DNA of 35,130 nt from Methanobacteriota archaeon (lineage in GTDB: Archaea > Halobacteriota > Methanosarcinia > Methanosarcinales > Methanosarcinaceae), in contig JASGVX010000061.1 in NCBI GenBank assembly GCA_030054735.1, positions 1 to 35,130 on the forward strand, in the 5' to 3' direction. The translations under genes and the position numbers were made by a program. Of this stretch, positions 13,880-34,857 are shown piece by piece; position 1 is the stretch's first letter; every line of letters begins with the position of its first letter. Under the pieces are notes generated by a model. It was not told the DNA's origin. It made no database searches and saw only the letters and a list, made by a program, of their open reading frames with translations.

Positions 13880-15139
13880 ATGGCAGGAGACCTGAAACAA
13901 ATCTACGAACGATTTAATCCAAATAAAGCTCTTCAAAATGACAGTTTGGAAAAATATTATGTAGAAATAGACCAGAACGAAATATATATTGGAGATCTAA
14001 AAACTAACCTTGAGCTTAGCCTTGAAACTCACGAGCCAATTAAACTTCTTTTTACTGGCCATAGAGGATCAGGCAAAACAACAGCATTAAACCGTCTTGT
14101 TTCATACCTGAATAGAGAAATGGGAGATAAATTTTTTATTGTTCACTTTAGTGTTCTCGACCTTCTGGACAATAATGATATAATTTACACTGATGTATTG
14201 TTTTCAATACTTACAAAAATTATGGAAAAGTGTCAGGTAGAGTGCGATATAAGCCCTTCACTGGCTGAAAGAGCAGAAAGATGGGGTAAATCCATAACAA
14301 AAATAGAGATATCTGAAGATAAGGTGGAAGCAGGTGCAGGCTTTAATTTATCATATTTTTTTGAACTACTGGCACGGATGAAAAGCGAAACAACAACCAG
14401 ACAAGAAATTAGGGAAGAGATTCAACCACGTGTTTCGGAATTGATTAATCTGATAAATGATATAATTGCTGAAATAGAAAAAAGTGAAAGGCAAGTGCTT
14501 GTCATAATTGATAATCTTGAAAAATGTGATTACGAAAATGCATCGGATTTATTTTACCGTCACAGCACCCAGCTAACTCAACCATTATGCAAGATTATTT
14601 ATACATTCCCTATTTCTCTCCGAAGCTCGAATAATTTCAGCCAGATTAGAGGGAATTTTAGCGTAGATATAATCTATCCAAATATCAAGATTCATGAAAA
14701 GGATGGAAATGTAAAGGATACGAACGGTAGAAATTTCATGAGGCAAATTGTAGAAAAAAGAGTTTCTACTGACCTGTTTACTCCCGAAGCTCTTGAATAC
14801 ATTATTGATATGAGTGGAGGTGTTATCAGAGAATTTATAAGAATAATTAGGGATTCGGCAGTACGAGCCATAGCTAGAAGAAAAACCTTGATAGAGAAAG
14901 ATATTGCCGTAGAAGTAATAAATGGACTCAAAAACTCATATCAGGCACAGTTGAGTGATGAAGATTATGACGTACTTTTGAATATATATGAAACTAAGGA
15001 CATAAAAAGAGACGAGAAACTTGTTGGCCTGCTTCATAATCTCAGCGTGCTCGAATATACGAATGGAAGAAGCTGGTGTGATGTTAATCCAATTGTCAGG
15101 TCGATTCTTGAAGAGAAAAATCTTCTTACAGAAAAATAA
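13880..15139 (+). CDS. P-loop AAA/STAND-like ATPase, first gene of an accessory cassette
   Basis: The 419-residue protein has a clear Walker A motif GHRGSGKTT (residues 60-68) and Walker B VLVIIDNLEKCD (Asp211, Glu214), followed by a sensor-like IIYTFPISLRS and a C-terminal helical region. It resembles AAA_16/STAND-type or KAP-like ATPases that act as switches, not the common housekeeping AAA families. The N-terminus (FNPNKALQNDSLEKYYVEI) precedes the ATPase core directly, so there is no fused effector or repeat domain. The TPR-bearing protein encoded 81 bp downstream may supply that. Codons are AT-rich like the TPR gene. AAAGGA upstream of the ATG is a modest ribosome site. Function is unknown; a signalling or defence role is inference from architecture. 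Confidence 0.75.
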   Translation: MAGDLKQIYERFNPNKALQNDSLEKYYVEIDQNEIYIGDLKTNLELSLETHEPIKLLFTGHRGSGKTTALNRLVSYLNREMGDKFFIVHFSVLDLLDNNDIIYTDVLFSILTKIMEKCQVECDISPSLAERAERWGKSITKIEISEDKVEAGAGFNLSYFFELLARMKSETTTRQEIREEIQPRVSELINLINDIIAEIEKSERQVLVIIDNLEKCDYENASDLFYRHSTQLTQPLCKIIYTFPISLRSSNNFSQIRGNFSVDIIYPNIKIHEKDGNVKDTNGRNFMRQIVEKRVSTDLFTPEALEYIIDMSGGVIREFIRIIRDSAVRAIARRKTLIEKDIAVEVINGLKNSYQAQLSDEDYDVLLNIYETKDIKRDEKLVGLLHNLSVLEYTNGRSWCDVNPIVRSILEEKNLLTEK

Positions 15140-15220
15140 AATGAATTAGAAAGTTTAATTAAAAATTGTCGTCAAACAAGGCTTTAAATTATTTAATCTG
15201 GGAGCCTGAAGGGCAAAAAT

Positions 15221-17023
15221 ATGGAAATGGAACCCTCTCATTTTATGAAAGTCGAAGAGATAATTACACTCCTTGACCTCTCTGAAGACTGTACAATTGC
15301 ATTTGTGCGCTGTAATAAGCCCATTTTATGTGATGCAATCTACAAGGAAATTTGTGAGCGGATACGTAGTAGAATTCATGTTTACAAGATTGAAATGAAT
15401 GAAGAATCCACAAATCTCTTTCAGCTTTTAGAGGAAATAACAAAATCCGATTCGTACAATTCAAAACTTAATGAAAATAAAAAAATTGCTTTTTTTGTTT
15501 TTGGGCTCGACTGCGCAGTAAAAAAGAAAAACATTAGCGGGAAATCAGAAGCCTTGCTTCTGCTGAATATGATGCGAGAAAAGTTTCTGGAAATCAAACA
15601 CCCGATACTTATCTGGATAAACAGTGCGTCGCTCAATTTAATCCTTGAGGATGCACAGGATTTTTTTTCATGGAGAACCACGGTTTTTGAATTTGATGCC
15701 AAAAGAGAATTAACTTCCAGTCCAAATTTCGAATTTGAGGATTTTGATGGTCTGGACAAAAAAGGGCTGGAAGAACTTGTTGATTATTACAAAAATTTAA
15801 TTATAGAATTTGAAAACAAAGAATTGAAAGATCCTTATAAATTTGCTTACTGGAATTACAATCTCGGAATGATTCAACTACGTATGGGCTATTCAAAAGA
15901 AGCTATGAATTATCTTGAAACTGCAGCATTAATATCATCCAGGTTTGAAAATAAAAACCTAAAAGTTTCTATATACCGTAATCTAGGCATAACATACTAC
16001 CAGCTTGGAGATTTGAAAAAGGCTCTCGAATATTCAGATCAGGCTCTTAAAATTATTAAAGAGATCGGAAACAAGAAAGAGGAAGGATTTATCCTAAAAA
16101 ACTTTGGCACAATCAATGTACAACTTGGTGATGTAAGAAAAGCAATTGAATACTATGAACAGGCACTGGAAATTGCAAAAGAAATAGGGGACAAGCGAGG
16201 AGAAGGTGCAGACCTTGGAAATCTGGGCATCGCCTACAGTGATCTGGGAGAGACAAGAAAAGCAATTGAATACTATGAACAGGCACTAGATATTGCAAAA
16301 GAGATAGGGGACAGGAGAGGAGAAGGAAATCACCTTGGAAATCTGGGGAGCGCATACAGAAATCTGGGAGAGACAAGAAAAGCAATTGAATACTATGAAC
16401 AGGCACTGGAAATTGCAAAAGAAATAGGGGATAGGAGAGGAGAAGGAAATCGCCTTGGAAATCTGGGGAACGCATACAGAAATCTAGGAGAAACAAGAAA
16501 AGCAATTGAATACTATGAACAGGCACTGGAAATTGCAAAAGAGATTGGGGACAGGCGAGGAGAAGGTGTAGACCTTGGAAACCTGGGTATCGCATACCGT
16601 GATCTGGGAGAGACAAGAAAAGCAATTGAATACTATGAACAGGCACTGGAAATTGCAAAAGAGATAGGGGACAGGCGAGGAGAAGCTATAAACCTTGGAA
16701 ATCTGGGTATCGCATACCGTGATCTGGGAGAGACAAGAAAAGCGATTGAATATTATGAACAGGCACTTGAAATTGCAAAAGAGACAGAGGACAGGCGAAG
16801 AGAAGGTGCAGCCCTTGGAAATCTGGGTATCGCCTTCAGTGATCTGGGAGAGGCAAGAAAAGCTATTGAATTTTTAAAGGAATCCCTCACAATAGGAAAG
16901 GCGATTGAAGATCCGAGGATAGTTGGCCTTTGTGAGCAGAAATTGAAGGAACTTGAAGGGACTGAAGGGTCTGAAGACGATAAAACTTCGAAAATATCCT
17001 CCAGTTTCAAAACGTATTTTTAA
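15221..17023 (+). CDS. TPR protein with N-terminal degenerate P-loop-like domain
   Basis: The 600-residue protein has two parts. Residues about 1-170 look like a P-loop domain that has lost its Walker A site: CTIAFVRCNKP at the expected place, a hydrophobic Walker-B-like strand IAFFVFGLD, then HPILIWINSASLNLIL and DAQDFFSWRTTVFEF. Similar 'PLxLWLP ... DFWSWRSGVFEF' segments occur in many bacterial TPR/NB-ARC-like proteins. From about residue 200 onward there are tetratricopeptide repeats. Six 40-residue units are nearly identical (AIEYYEQALEIAKEIGD..., GNLG-AYRNLGETRK), with more diverged ones on each side. TPR arrays bind proteins or peptides. The gene follows the ATPase gene by 81 bp, probably in one transcript, so the pair may act as a split STAND-like switch and sensor. 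Confidence 0.8.
   Translation: MEMEPSHFMKVEEIITLLDLSEDCTIAFVRCNKPILCDAIYKEICERIRSRIHVYKIEMNEESTNLFQLLEEITKSDSYNSKLNENKKIAFFVFGLDCAVKKKNISGKSEALLLLNMMREKFLEIKHPILIWINSASLNLILEDAQDFFSWRTTVFEFDAKRELTSSPNFEFEDFDGLDKKGLEELVDYYKNLIIEFENKELKDPYKFAYWNYNLGMIQLRMGYSKEAMNYLETAALISSRFENKNLKVSIYRNLGITYYQLGDLKKALEYSDQALKIIKEIGNKKEEGFILKNFGTINVQLGDVRKAIEYYEQALEIAKEIGDKRGEGADLGNLGIAYSDLGETRKAIEYYEQALDIAKEIGDRRGEGNHLGNLGSAYRNLGETRKAIEYYEQALEIAKEIGDRRGEGNRLGNLGNAYRNLGETRKAIEYYEQALEIAKEIGDRRGEGVDLGNLGIAYRDLGETRKAIEYYEQALEIAKEIGDRRGEAINLGNLGIAYRDLGETRKAIEYYEQALEIAKETEDRRREGAALGNLGIAFSDLGEARKAIEFLKESLTIGKAIEDPRIVGLCEQKLKELEGTEGSEDDKTSKISSSFKTYF
16141..16860 (+). repeat. Six 120-bp tandem DNA repeats inside the TPR gene
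   Basis: The units begin at 16141, 16261, 16381, 16501, 16621 and 16741, and each encodes one 40-residue TPR. They are nearly identical at the nucleotide level, including silent positions, so they are being homogenised or were duplicated recently. Copy-number change by recombination is likely. Confidence 0.93.
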
Positions 17024-31422: not shown

Positions 31423-32378
31423 GTTGAAAAACGGGTTCCAGCAAAACAAGGATTGAAACCCCGCTCACAACCTTCATATCTATCACTAGCTTTTCCATAG
31501 TTGAAAAACGGGTTCCAGCAAAACAAGGATTGAAACCCTGTTGAGAAATACACATCACCTTTTACGGTTCCGTTGTTGAAAAACGGGTTCCAGCAAAACA
31601 AGGATTGAAACCCGCTTGCGATTCTTGATGTTATTGTGTCCGTGTCCGGTTGAAAAACGGGTTCCAGCAAAACAAGGATTGAAACTTTTCTCAAATCTTA
31701 ATTGGGGTTCAACCGGCCTGCAGTTGAAAAACGGGTTCCAGCAAAACAAGGATTGAAACTCACGATTATTTTTTGTTTTCATGTCCTAGTTCTCGTTGAA
31801 AAACGGGTTCCAGCAAAACAAGGATTGAAACAGTTCTCCGGGGAGGTTTTCTTGTTTTCTCCATTTTAATGTTGAAAAACGGGTTCCAGCAAAACAAGGA
31901 TTGAAACAATGTTAATGTTAACGATTCCTGCTCTATCCAGAAACCTTCTTTTGAAGGTTTCTGGCGGAGAGTTCCCCGTTGAAAAACGGGTTCCAGCAAA
32001 ACAAGGATTGAAACGCGTAGATCTTTTACTTCCATTGATAGGCTCATTTTTTTGTTGAAAAACGGGTTCCAGCAAAACAAGGATTGAAACATAGTTGAGC
32101 GATCTCTCCGTATCTGTCAACGTCAGATAGTTGAAAAACGGGTTCCAGCAAAACAAGGATTGAAACTATATATATAGCCATAGCCATCTTTTTTCCCTCT
32201 TTGTTGAAAAACGGGTTCCAGCAAAACAAGGATTGAAACTTTTTTATAATAATCAGTAACTCCACAAAGATCTTTGGTTGAAAAACGGGTTCCAGCAAAA
32301 CAAGGATTGAAACAATGGACATGGAGATGTTTAAAACCCCCACTCCTATTGTTGAAAAACGGGTTCCAGCAAAACAAG
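31423..32378 (+). CRISPR. CRISPR array, 12 full repeats plus one truncated, 12 spacers
   Basis: The 37-base repeat begins GTTGAAAAACGGG and ends CAAGGATTGAAAC. Full copies start at 31423, 31500, 31575, 31649, 31723, 31795, 31871, 31978, 32054, 32130, 32203 and 32277. A thirteenth at 32351 matches for 28 bases and then diverges (CAAGAGACATTTTT), marking the trailer end. Spacers are 40, 38, 37, 37, 35, 39, 70, 39, 39, 36, 37 and 37 bases. The ATTGAAAC end is typical of archaeal type I-A/I-B and type III repeats and would become the 8-base 5' handle after Cas6 cleavage. All complete repeats look identical. Minus-strand reading frames through the array are not genes. Confidence 0.98.
31908..31977 (+). 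repeat. Double-length (70 nt) spacer containing a perfect hairpin
   Basis: Spacer 7 is about twice the normal size. It holds CCAGAAACCTTC-TTTT-GAAGGTTTCTGG (31937-31964), a 12-bp perfect stem with a four-base loop. No trace of a lost repeat is visible inside it. Confidence 0.9.
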
Positions 32379-32494: not shown

Positions 32495-32622
32495 AGTTGC
32501 TTAACAAACTTTTGCATTTTAAACGTGGCATCTTACAAATTTGCCTGAATTCCGGCTTTTTTGCTTTACTGCAATAATGAGAAATTAGCTCTTTTTTCTT
32601 TCCCTATAAGGTTGTTTTTCTG

Positions 32623-32700
32623 AAGACTTCGATGAGCTATCGAATTGTAGTCTTGACTCTCGAATAGTTCGTCTCCAGGAATATCAGAATCAAGAGACGA
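32623..32700 (+). ncRNA. Hairpin-rich segment upstream of the RT operon
   Basis: Two strong stems lie side by side. The first pairs AAGACT-TCGAT with ATCGA-(ATTGT)-AGTCTT around a five-base loop (32623-32654). The second pairs TCGTCTC (32669-32675) with GAGACGA (32694-32700). They end 20 bases before the ribosome site of the small ORF. This could be a structured leader, a regulatory RNA, or a relic of a group II intron 5' domain. RNA identity is unproven. Confidence 0.4.
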
Positions 32701-32732
32701 TTGGTAAGTAATCAATCAAAAGGAGGGACTGA

Positions 32733-32927
32733 ATGATATCCTGGAACTATATAAAAGAATTTCAGATAAAAGTTAAAATTTTTTCAGTTAAGACACTGGA
32801 AAATCTGTCTGAAATCCGGAAGAGAACATTGAAGCACACTGGAAAAATCTACAAGACTTTCTGGAGGGTCATACGCTGGACAGAGATTATCATAATCATA
32901 GTCGAGCTGTTGCTCAAATTCAGATGA
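32733..32927 (+). CDS. Small basic protein, translationally coupled to the RT
   Basis: The 64-residue product has a basic N-terminal two-thirds (KEFQIKVKIF, EIRKRTLKHTGKIYK) and a hydrophobic C-terminal segment (RWTEIIIIIVELLLKF). I do not recognise a family. It is very likely translated: AGGAGGG lies five bases before its ATG, the strongest ribosome site in this region, and its TGA overlaps the RT start as ATGA. It could be a cofactor of the RT, a leader peptide ensuring RT translation, or a small membrane-associated protein. A broken-off N-terminal piece of the RT is less likely, since the RT starts in another frame with a normal N-terminus. Confidence 0.55.
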   Translation: MISWNYIKEFQIKVKIFSVKTLENLSEIRKRTLKHTGKIYKTFWRVIRWTEIIIIIVELLLKFR

Positions 32928-34129
32928 AGTTGTACAGGGAATCCAGCAGCAAAAAAGAGAAGCCTTTAAAGCATCTCAAAAAGCTGCTTGTGAAAGAAGA
33001 GACCCTTCGTACTGCCTGGAAGAACCTTAACAGAGACACAAACTCCGTTGGTGTTGACTGTTTGTCTATCAGGCAAGTTAAAGAGTCCGGTGTGGATGAT
33101 TTTTTGAAAGCCGTACAGAAAGAACTTAAAACTAATCGATACAGGGCTGACAAGATAAGGAGGATTGATATTCCAAAAGAAAACGGTACCCAGCGGCATA
33201 TAGGGATAATGACTGTGAAAGACAGACTTGTCCAGGGGGCTATGAAGTTGATTCTCGAACCTATCTTTGAAGCAGATTTCGAGGACTCTTCTTTTGGCTT
33301 TCGGCCTTCAAGGTCCACAAAGCTTGCAAGCCTTGAAGTGTACAAATGGCTGGAAACAGGACTCAATCATGTAGTCAAGGGCGATATAAAGAATTGCTTT
33401 GATAGTATTCCTCACAAACAGATAATGGACTGCCTCAAAGTCAGGATAGGAGATAAATATCTCCTTTCCATCATCGAGGCCTGGCTTAAAGCTGGTGTTG
33501 TGGAAGCAGATTCTGTATACTACCCTGAAAAAGGAGTTCCTCAGGGAGGGATAATTTCTCCCCTGCTTGTGAATATCTATCTTTCCCAGATGGACAGAGA
33601 ATGGAGAAGGAATGTTTTTGACGGGCATGCAGGTAGGTCAGAGGAGAGGCTTGTGAGGTATGCTGATGATTTTGTAGTTCTTGGAAAGAAATGGGTTGAC
33701 TTTGCACGTATAGAAGCAGTTCTTGCGGATCTTGGTCTCGAAATCAACAGAGAAAAGACCTACACAAGCAACGTAAAAAAAGGCTTCGAGTTTCTCGGTT
33801 ACACTTTCCGTGAAGTTTCTTCTAAGGAAGGGCTTGAAGGAAAAATTCGGCTTTTACCTTCAGGAAGTTCAGTTAGAAGAGTTATAGAAGCCGTAGAGAA
33901 AGCAACGGAGTTTGATCCCTCATCTCCCAGGCCACTTGAGTATGTACTCGAAGATATCCAAAAAGTTGTACGCCCGTGGATGTGCTATTACCACCATACC
34001 GAGTACTTGGATGGACTTGAAGAAATTCAGAGATACTTTAATGTACAGCTCCGCGAATATACAAGAAAATACCGGGAAATTGAGCTTTTTAGAATGCAGG
34101 AGAAAAGACAGATTTCAAAAGCTTTTTAA
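32924..34129 (+). CDS. Group II intron-type reverse transcriptase, CRISPR-adjacent
   Basis: The 401-residue protein has the ordered RT motifs of the group II lineage: RIDIPKENGTQRHIGI (RT1), QGAMKLILEPIFEADF and SFGFRPSRS (RT2 region), KGDIKNCFD with Asp154 (RT3), GVPQGGIISP (204-213), RYADD with Asp248/Asp249 (RT5), INREKT and FEFLGY (RT6-7). A short maturase-like X/thumb region (RPWMCYYHH..., YFNVQLREYTRKY) follows. There is no HNH endonuclease domain. It would make cDNA from RNA. The 56 bases after the stop are AT-rich and lack a domain V-like sequence, so this is probably not a live group II intron. Position between a CRISPR array and cas6, on the same strand, suggests a role in spacer acquisition from RNA, but no cas1 is in the window. 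Confidence 0.9.
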   Translation: MKLYRESSSKKEKPLKHLKKLLVKEETLRTAWKNLNRDTNSVGVDCLSIRQVKESGVDDFLKAVQKELKTNRYRADKIRRIDIPKENGTQRHIGIMTVKDRLVQGAMKLILEPIFEADFEDSSFGFRPSRSTKLASLEVYKWLETGLNHVVKGDIKNCFDSIPHKQIMDCLKVRIGDKYLLSIIEAWLKAGVVEADSVYYPEKGVPQGGIISPLLVNIYLSQMDREWRRNVFDGHAGRSEERLVRYADDFVVLGKKWVDFARIEAVLADLGLEINREKTYTSNVKKGFEFLGYTFREVSSKEGLEGKIRLLPSGSSVRRVIEAVEKATEFDPSSPRPLEYVLEDIQKVVRPWMCYYHHTEYLDGLEEIQRYFNVQLREYTRKYREIELFRMQEKRQISKAF

Positions 34130-34185: not shown

Positions 34186-34857
34186 ATGAAACTCAAGACA
34201 CTCGAAATGACCTTCAGATCCACAAAAGAGTTCAAAGAGAACATTCTCTGCACCCGCGGCTTTTTTGCAACGAAATTTAATGAATACGTCCAGCTTCACA
34301 ACCACACTGCGGACAAGCTTGTGTACAGCTACCCCACAATCCAGTACAAGGTTGTCAGAAACAGGCCTCTTATTCTGGGCGTCAACGAAGGAATTGATGT
34401 CTTGAAGGAGATTTTTGATGAATTTGATACTGTAAAGCTTGGAGATACAGAATATGAGATCATCCAGAGGTCAATGACAATCAAAAAACAGGAATTCGGG
34501 CTTTCGGACAAGAACCATTTTTATGAATTCCTCACTCCATGGTTGCCTTTTAACAAGGAAAACTATGAAAAGTTCGTGAATCTTAAAACGATGGAAGAGC
34601 AAAAAGATATGCTTAGAAGGATCCTCACAGGCAATCTCCTCTCCATGTCAAAGGATCTCGGCTACACAGTCCCTGATAAAATAATATGTGATATCGACGT
34701 TCAGGTGACAAAAAGTGAGTATAAAAAGGTAGATTTTATTTCATTCTATGGCGGTTTCATGGTAAATTTCTCCATCCCCGACTATATGGGAATAGGGAAA
34801 TCTCCAGCAATGGGCATGGGAACTGTTAAAAAGATACGTGTATACAGGAATGACTAA
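34186..34857 (+). CDS. cas6: CRISPR-associated endoribonuclease Cas6
   Basis: From ATG 34186 the protein has 223 residues. It carries the Cas6-like N-terminal pattern VQLHNHTADKLVYSYPTIQYKV followed by RPLILGVNEGIDVL, and the glycine-rich RNA-binding loop near the C-terminus, GIGKSPAMGMGTVKK (about 202-216). Cas6 cuts pre-crRNA within each repeat to leave the 8-base handle, here AUUGAAAC. His in LHNH is a candidate catalytic residue but this is not certain. It starts 56 bp after the RT stop on the same strand, so the two may be co-transcribed. No strong ribosome site precedes the ATG; an in-frame TTG at 34174 is an alternative start. Effector and adaptation genes may lie just beyond the right edge. 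Confidence 0.85.
   Translation: MKLKTLEMTFRSTKEFKENILCTRGFFATKFNEYVQLHNHTADKLVYSYPTIQYKVVRNRPLILGVNEGIDVLKEIFDEFDTVKLGDTEYEIIQRSMTIKKQEFGLSDKNHFYEFLTPWLPFNKENYEKFVNLKTMEEQKDMLRRILTGNLLSMSKDLGYTVPDKIICDIDVQVTKSEYKKVDFISFYGGFMVNFSIPDYMGIGKSPAMGMGTVKKIRVYRND

Follow-up and report, generated by a model that had tools for sequence, protein, structure and literature searches.

In a type III-A CRISPR locus of the methane-producing archaeon analysed here (Methanosarcinaceae), a 64-codon open reading frame (ORF) directly precedes the gene of a reverse transcriptase (RT), evolves under purifying selection and accompanies a single subclade of these RTs. The RT gene probably begins inside the small ORF, at a near-cognate start codon with its own ribosome site. 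The reading favoured here is that of a small, lineage-specific RT-associated protein which is made together with the RT, while the main rival is a translational gate in front of the RT gene.

Organization of the CRISPR locus

The window, i.e. the whole 35,130-nucleotide stretch of DNA that was analysed, contains the following features:

31423–32378, + strand: CRISPR array 1, twelve full 37-nt repeats (GTTGAAAAACGGGTTCCAGCAAAACAAGGATTGAAAC) and a truncated last repeat (32351–32378)
32645–32732, + strand: 5' leader, the last ~75 nt of which are homologous to the leader of RT-CRISPR-1 RTs without small ORF
32721–32727, + strand: SD1 (AGGAGGG), ribosome site of the small ORF, 5 nt spacing, duplex energy −10.9 kcal/mol
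32733–32927, + strand: small ORF, ATG start, TGA stop, 64 amino acids, pI about 10.4, net charge +9
32863–32868, + strand: SD2 (GGAGGG), candidate RT ribosome site within the small ORF, invariant in three loci
32876–34129, + strand: RT, corrected model with putative CTG start, 417 amino acids, group II intron-like, YADD motif intact
34186–34857, + strand: cas6b, with Pfam domains Cas6b_N and Cas6b_C

The locus is arranged in the order array, small ORF, RT, cas6b, second array and csm1–5. The right end of the window and the reverse complement of a second contig of the same genome (C79) overlap by more than 100 bp without a mismatch. Since this contig carries the second array, built from the repeat of array 1, and all five genes csm1-csm2-csm3-csm4-csm5, the locus belongs to type III-A.

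The RT matches TIGR04416 with 329.5 bits (cut-off 300) and RVT_1 with an E-value of 2.6e-38, the YADD motif being part of the alignment. In a tree of 18 RTs, built without published RT-CRISPR-1/branch 11 reference sequences, all 11 Methanosarcinaceae RTs fall on one side, apart from the bacterial ones, with a support of 100/100. By its sequence, the RT is a member of the known clade RT-CRISPR-1, or branch 11. A remnant of group II intron RNA in front of the RT was considered and rejected, as a group II match in Rfam is absent, and a plasmid search with the RT gave no match.

Neither cas1 nor cas2 was detected in the window's genome (G000), the assembly of which is 99.4%-complete, apart from a cas1 fragment of 30 bits on contig C85 that contains a stop. 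Thus, either the assembly lacks cas1 or the RT works without it. In the two other genomes that carry the small ORF (G027 and G040, see below), cas1-cas2 and a CARF gene are located nearby on the opposite strand. The RT gene of G027 (L123:4071-7214) is split at the YADD motif by an apparent group II intron, and the insert encodes its own RT of 430 amino acids. At the same YADD position the RT match of a further genome (G004, L040/L044) stops, and the adjoining sequence resembles the 5' end of an intron (GTGCGCCACGAAAGCGCAC). Elsewhere in the window (13880–17023), an NTPase-like ORF precedes one for a protein in which a TPR-like repeat (EQALEIAKEIGDRRGEGxxLGNLG) recurs many times almost unchanged.

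The small ORF accompanies one RT subclade

The preliminary description of this region had reported a 64-codon ORF with a strong ribosome site, and SD1, situated 5 nt in front of the ATG, bears this out. Homologues of the ORF were detected in two of the 111 other family genomes searched: G027, of the same genus, with 73% amino acid identity, and G040, of another genus, with about 40%. All three ORFs comprise 195 nt and 64 codons, free of indels and premature stops; the start codon is ATG in the window and GTG in both homologues. Each homologue lies immediately 5' of one of the RTs nearest to the window RT (78% identity in G027, 71% in G040). The small ORF is hence carried by 3/3 members of this RT subclade, compared with 0/8 of the other RT-CRISPR-1 loci, the RTs of which are 40–61% identical to the window RT and group together with a support of 99/100. 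Several branching orders of the three carriers are compatible with the tree, and so are both gain and loss of the small ORF.

In the rest of the 112 family genomes no match of credible score was obtained, and neither the 393 phylum genomes nor viral contigs yielded a credible homologue outside the RT subclade. A weak match in G028 was discarded, as it contains two stops and nothing RT-like was seen in the surrounding sequence inspected. Within the family, co-occurrence is therefore restricted to the RT subclade, and the earlier proposal that the small ORF is real and tied to this RT clade stands; an unconserved peptide and premature stops in relatives were looked for as signs against it, and neither occurred.

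The encoded products are strongly basic throughout (pI about 10.4, net charge +9 to +11). Structure modelling yields a single long helix (pTM 0.31), and the C-terminal helix is hydrophobic with a score near the threshold for membrane segments. The small ORF has no family match in Pfam, NCBIfam, PADLOC or PHROGs. Likewise, the earlier remark that no RT partner of such composition has been described holds for sequence searches of Pfam, NCBIfam, PADLOC, PHROGs and the PDB.

Selection on the small ORF

Comparison across the homologues, as the preliminary description had suggested, revealed purifying selection in the frame of the ORF, with dN/dS values of 0.26, 0.36 and 0.35 for the three pairs; the other two frames gave 1.1–1.6 and 0.54–0.67. 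For codons 23–43, which lie outside the overlap with the RT, Fisher tests returned p values of 0.009, 0.002 and below 0.0001. Shuffling of whole alignment columns over codons 2–43 of the three sequences resulted in p = 0.016 (control frames 0.77 and 0.10), and randomised substitutions rarely match both the observed openness and the conservation of the frame (joint P 0.004–0.03). These values derive from only three sequences, the p values are moderate and the pairs are not independent. Codons 2–22 show little constraint at the protein level (pN/pS 0.6–0.87). Taken at the level of codons, the tests provide moderate evidence for a translated protein, strongest in codons 23–43. Homologues of the same length in front of the nearest RTs, in combination with purifying selection, indicate that the small ORF is more than a chance reading frame.

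The weak constraint on the first half of the peptide would also suit a translational gate, in which the small ORF, as an upstream ORF overlapping the RT gene, tunes RT translation by opening or occluding the internal SD2 and the peptide itself is inert. Such a gate would be in line with the position of the small ORF, which occupies the leader and the ribosome site used by the RT genes of relatives, and with small ORFs detected by Ribo-seq in Methanosarcina mazei, some of which lie in 5'UTRs and are possible upstream ORFs (PMC11456600). Moreover, SD2 is predicted to be strongly paired in the window mRNA (unpaired probability 0.01) and partly paired in that of G027 (0.23). However, SD2 is more open in G040 (0.57), which shows that sequestration is not conserved, and any regulation would not act via conserved sequestration. 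The constraint on amino acids in codons 23–43 also speaks against an inert peptide. The gate is less likely than the favoured reading, but is the alternative to be taken most seriously.

The RT gene probably starts within the small ORF

A literal 4-nt ATGA overlap between the small ORF and the first ATG of the RT frame (32924) is present, as previously noted, and corresponding overlaps exist in all three loci (ATGA, ATGA and TTGA). The preliminary description took this ATG as the RT start, reached by termination and reinitiation, which would couple the synthesis of both proteins. Consistent with this, no SD is found just before the overlap (−0.5 to −3.1 kcal/mol). However, several observations disagree with a start at this position. 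In archaeal as well as bacterial relatives, the N-terminal motif [AxIQ/xLQ]-x-KLY of the RT reaches further 5' than ATG 32924, with the variants AVAQIQ-MKLY in the window, AVADLQ-LKLY in G040, KLAEIQ-LKLY and KVAQIQ-LELY in other archaea and KIRxLQ-RKLY in bacteria. Initiation at the ATG would thus remove the conserved IQ/LQ residues. The codon itself is TTG in G040, and its position is occupied by Leu in most archaeal RTs and mostly by Arg, Gln or Glu in bacteria. Finally, the RT codons NTG-AAR automatically contain the TGA of the small ORF in another frame, and RT loci that have no small ORF show such codons as well.

In the corrected model, ATG 32924 is codon 17. An AlphaFold model of the RT beginning at CTG 32876 has a mean pLDDT of 88 and a pTM of 0.83, and its first helix comprises residues 2–25 (pLDDT 94 over residues 11–20). 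Met17 is located inside this predicted helix, so that a start at Met17 would cut it. An RT expressed from ATG 32924 would be without over half of the first helix and might be inactive.

The preliminary description saw no independent ribosome site for the RT. SD2, however, is invariant and followed after 7 nt by a start-like codon in the RT frame, namely CTG 32876 in the window, TTG in G027 and ATG in G040. Its duplex with the anti-SD amounts to −9.8 kcal/mol in all three loci. Across the RT gene, 5.6% of 24-nt windows reach −8 kcal/mol or better with the anti-SD, so it is chiefly the invariant sequence and the location that single out SD2. Against the corrected model, CTG rarely serves as a start codon. 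Nevertheless, the RT probably starts at CTG 32876 with its own ribosome site, as judged from sequence and predicted structure, and the two genes would overlap by about 52 nt. The ATGA coupling is then probably an artefact of the gene model. A start at the overlapping ATG and the lack of a separate SD, which would characterize a coupled pair, are not apparent from the sequence. Stoichiometric synthesis by termination and reinitiation does not follow if, as is probable, the RT has its own SD and starts elsewhere than at the ATGA; overall, initiation at ATG 32924 appears improbable.

Unusual start codons may also occur in RT genes without the small ORF. In L034, L035, L036, L037, L038 and L044, GGAGG stands 4–8 nt in front of an in-frame ATT, ATC or ATA codon of the RT, and these starts lack ATG, GTG and TTG alike. 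The residues that follow are nevertheless conserved (IQxQxxAxIQLKLY in the Methanosarcina RTs), and AUH initiation is possible in these six genes.

The leader in front of the small ORF

In five Methanosarcina loci without the small ORF, a homologous leader (last 75 bases) leads directly into the RT. The shared elements are CGAA-NNN-TTCG, ATATCA and GATGATTG...GGAGG. Among the three carrier loci, the leader can be aligned and is conserved over about 170 nt (32560–32732).

Synonymous sites are less diverged in the small ORF than in the RT (pS 0.39 vs 0.55), which, combined with the conserved leader, points to constraint on the nucleotide sequence as well. Part of the conservation of the small ORF may therefore act on the RNA. 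Both features would be expected if the region were a structured or regulatory RNA leader that preserves the sequence, with the open frame being incidental. However, the frame-specific substitutions and the absence of indels and stops argue for a coding role, RNAalifold gave no consensus structure for the leader, and Rfam contained no credible family apart from the CRISPR repeat. A purely non-coding origin of the open frame consequently has little probability.

A displaced fragment of a known protein, e.g. the coiled coil and membrane helix of archaeal Oxa1-like DUF106 (EMC3/TMCO1), is very improbable: a profile matched MJ0480 (5c8j) with an E-value of 1.3e-5, but the single-sequence match reached only 0.73, no Pfam match was obtained, and the identity was rejected by hhalign against eight DUF106 proteins of these archaea (2.8% probability).

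Comparison with known systems

RT-CRISPR clade 1 (Toro et al. 2017, PMC5541045) corresponds to branch 11 (Silas et al. 2017, PMC5513706). As described there, this group and the window have in common their occurrence in Methanosarcinaceae, a group II-like RT unfused to Cas1, adjoining cas6 and array, and type III effectors. The arrangement of RT, cas6 and type III genes is thus already known. The window differs by the additional overlapping 64-codon ORF after the leader, and by the absence of cas1 beside the RT in the assembly; in the available portions of both descriptions no small ORF in front of the RT is mentioned. No report of the small ORF was found in the open-access papers searched, and experimental work on archaeal CRISPR RTs was likewise not found in the literature searched.

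RT-Cas1 and Cas6-RT-Cas1 systems, such as that of Marinomonas MMB-1 (type III-B), also harbor an RT in a type III CRISPR locus, and the RTs of such loci are thought to allow the acquisition of spacers from RNA. In contrast, the window RT is a separate protein of another lineage and lacks the RT-Cas1 fusion. In size class, non-ATG starts and location in a 5' region, the small ORF resembles the small proteins and upstream ORFs identified by Ribo-seq in M. mazei (PMC11456600). The Ribo-seq dataset is unlikely to include it, since searches of the genus gave no homologue other than that of G027.

A proposed small protein made with the RT

An RT-associated protein would be the simplest reading in view of the selection on the small ORF and its linkage to the RT subclade. 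The small ORF would take its place after a conserved leader and ribosome site, at the point where RTs without it begin, and would presumably share one mRNA with the RT and cas6b. The RT would be translated from GGAGGG 32863 and the near-cognate CTG 32876 inside the small ORF. Both the small ORF and the RT would then be translated, and ribosomes traversing the former might modulate access to the internal SD2. The basic, helical 64-residue product could act together with the RT; the simplest mode would be binding to the RT itself or to the RNA that it uses as substrate. Its role may lie in spacer capture with Cas1-Cas2, or in another task of the RT after loss of cas1-cas2.

The combined reading, in which a real gene confined to this lineage encodes the peptide, the RT starts from its own SD2 and CTG 32876, and the peptide acts with the RT, is considered about evenly balanced between true and false. 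Somewhat more tentatively, a dedicated 64-residue partner of a CRISPR RT, the gene of which overlaps the RT N-terminus and carries the RT ribosome site, may have evolved in one archaeal type III-A subclade. A small protein tied to an archaeal CRISPR RT would offer a way to study how an RT that stands alone, unfused to Cas1, supplies or controls the acquisition of spacers.
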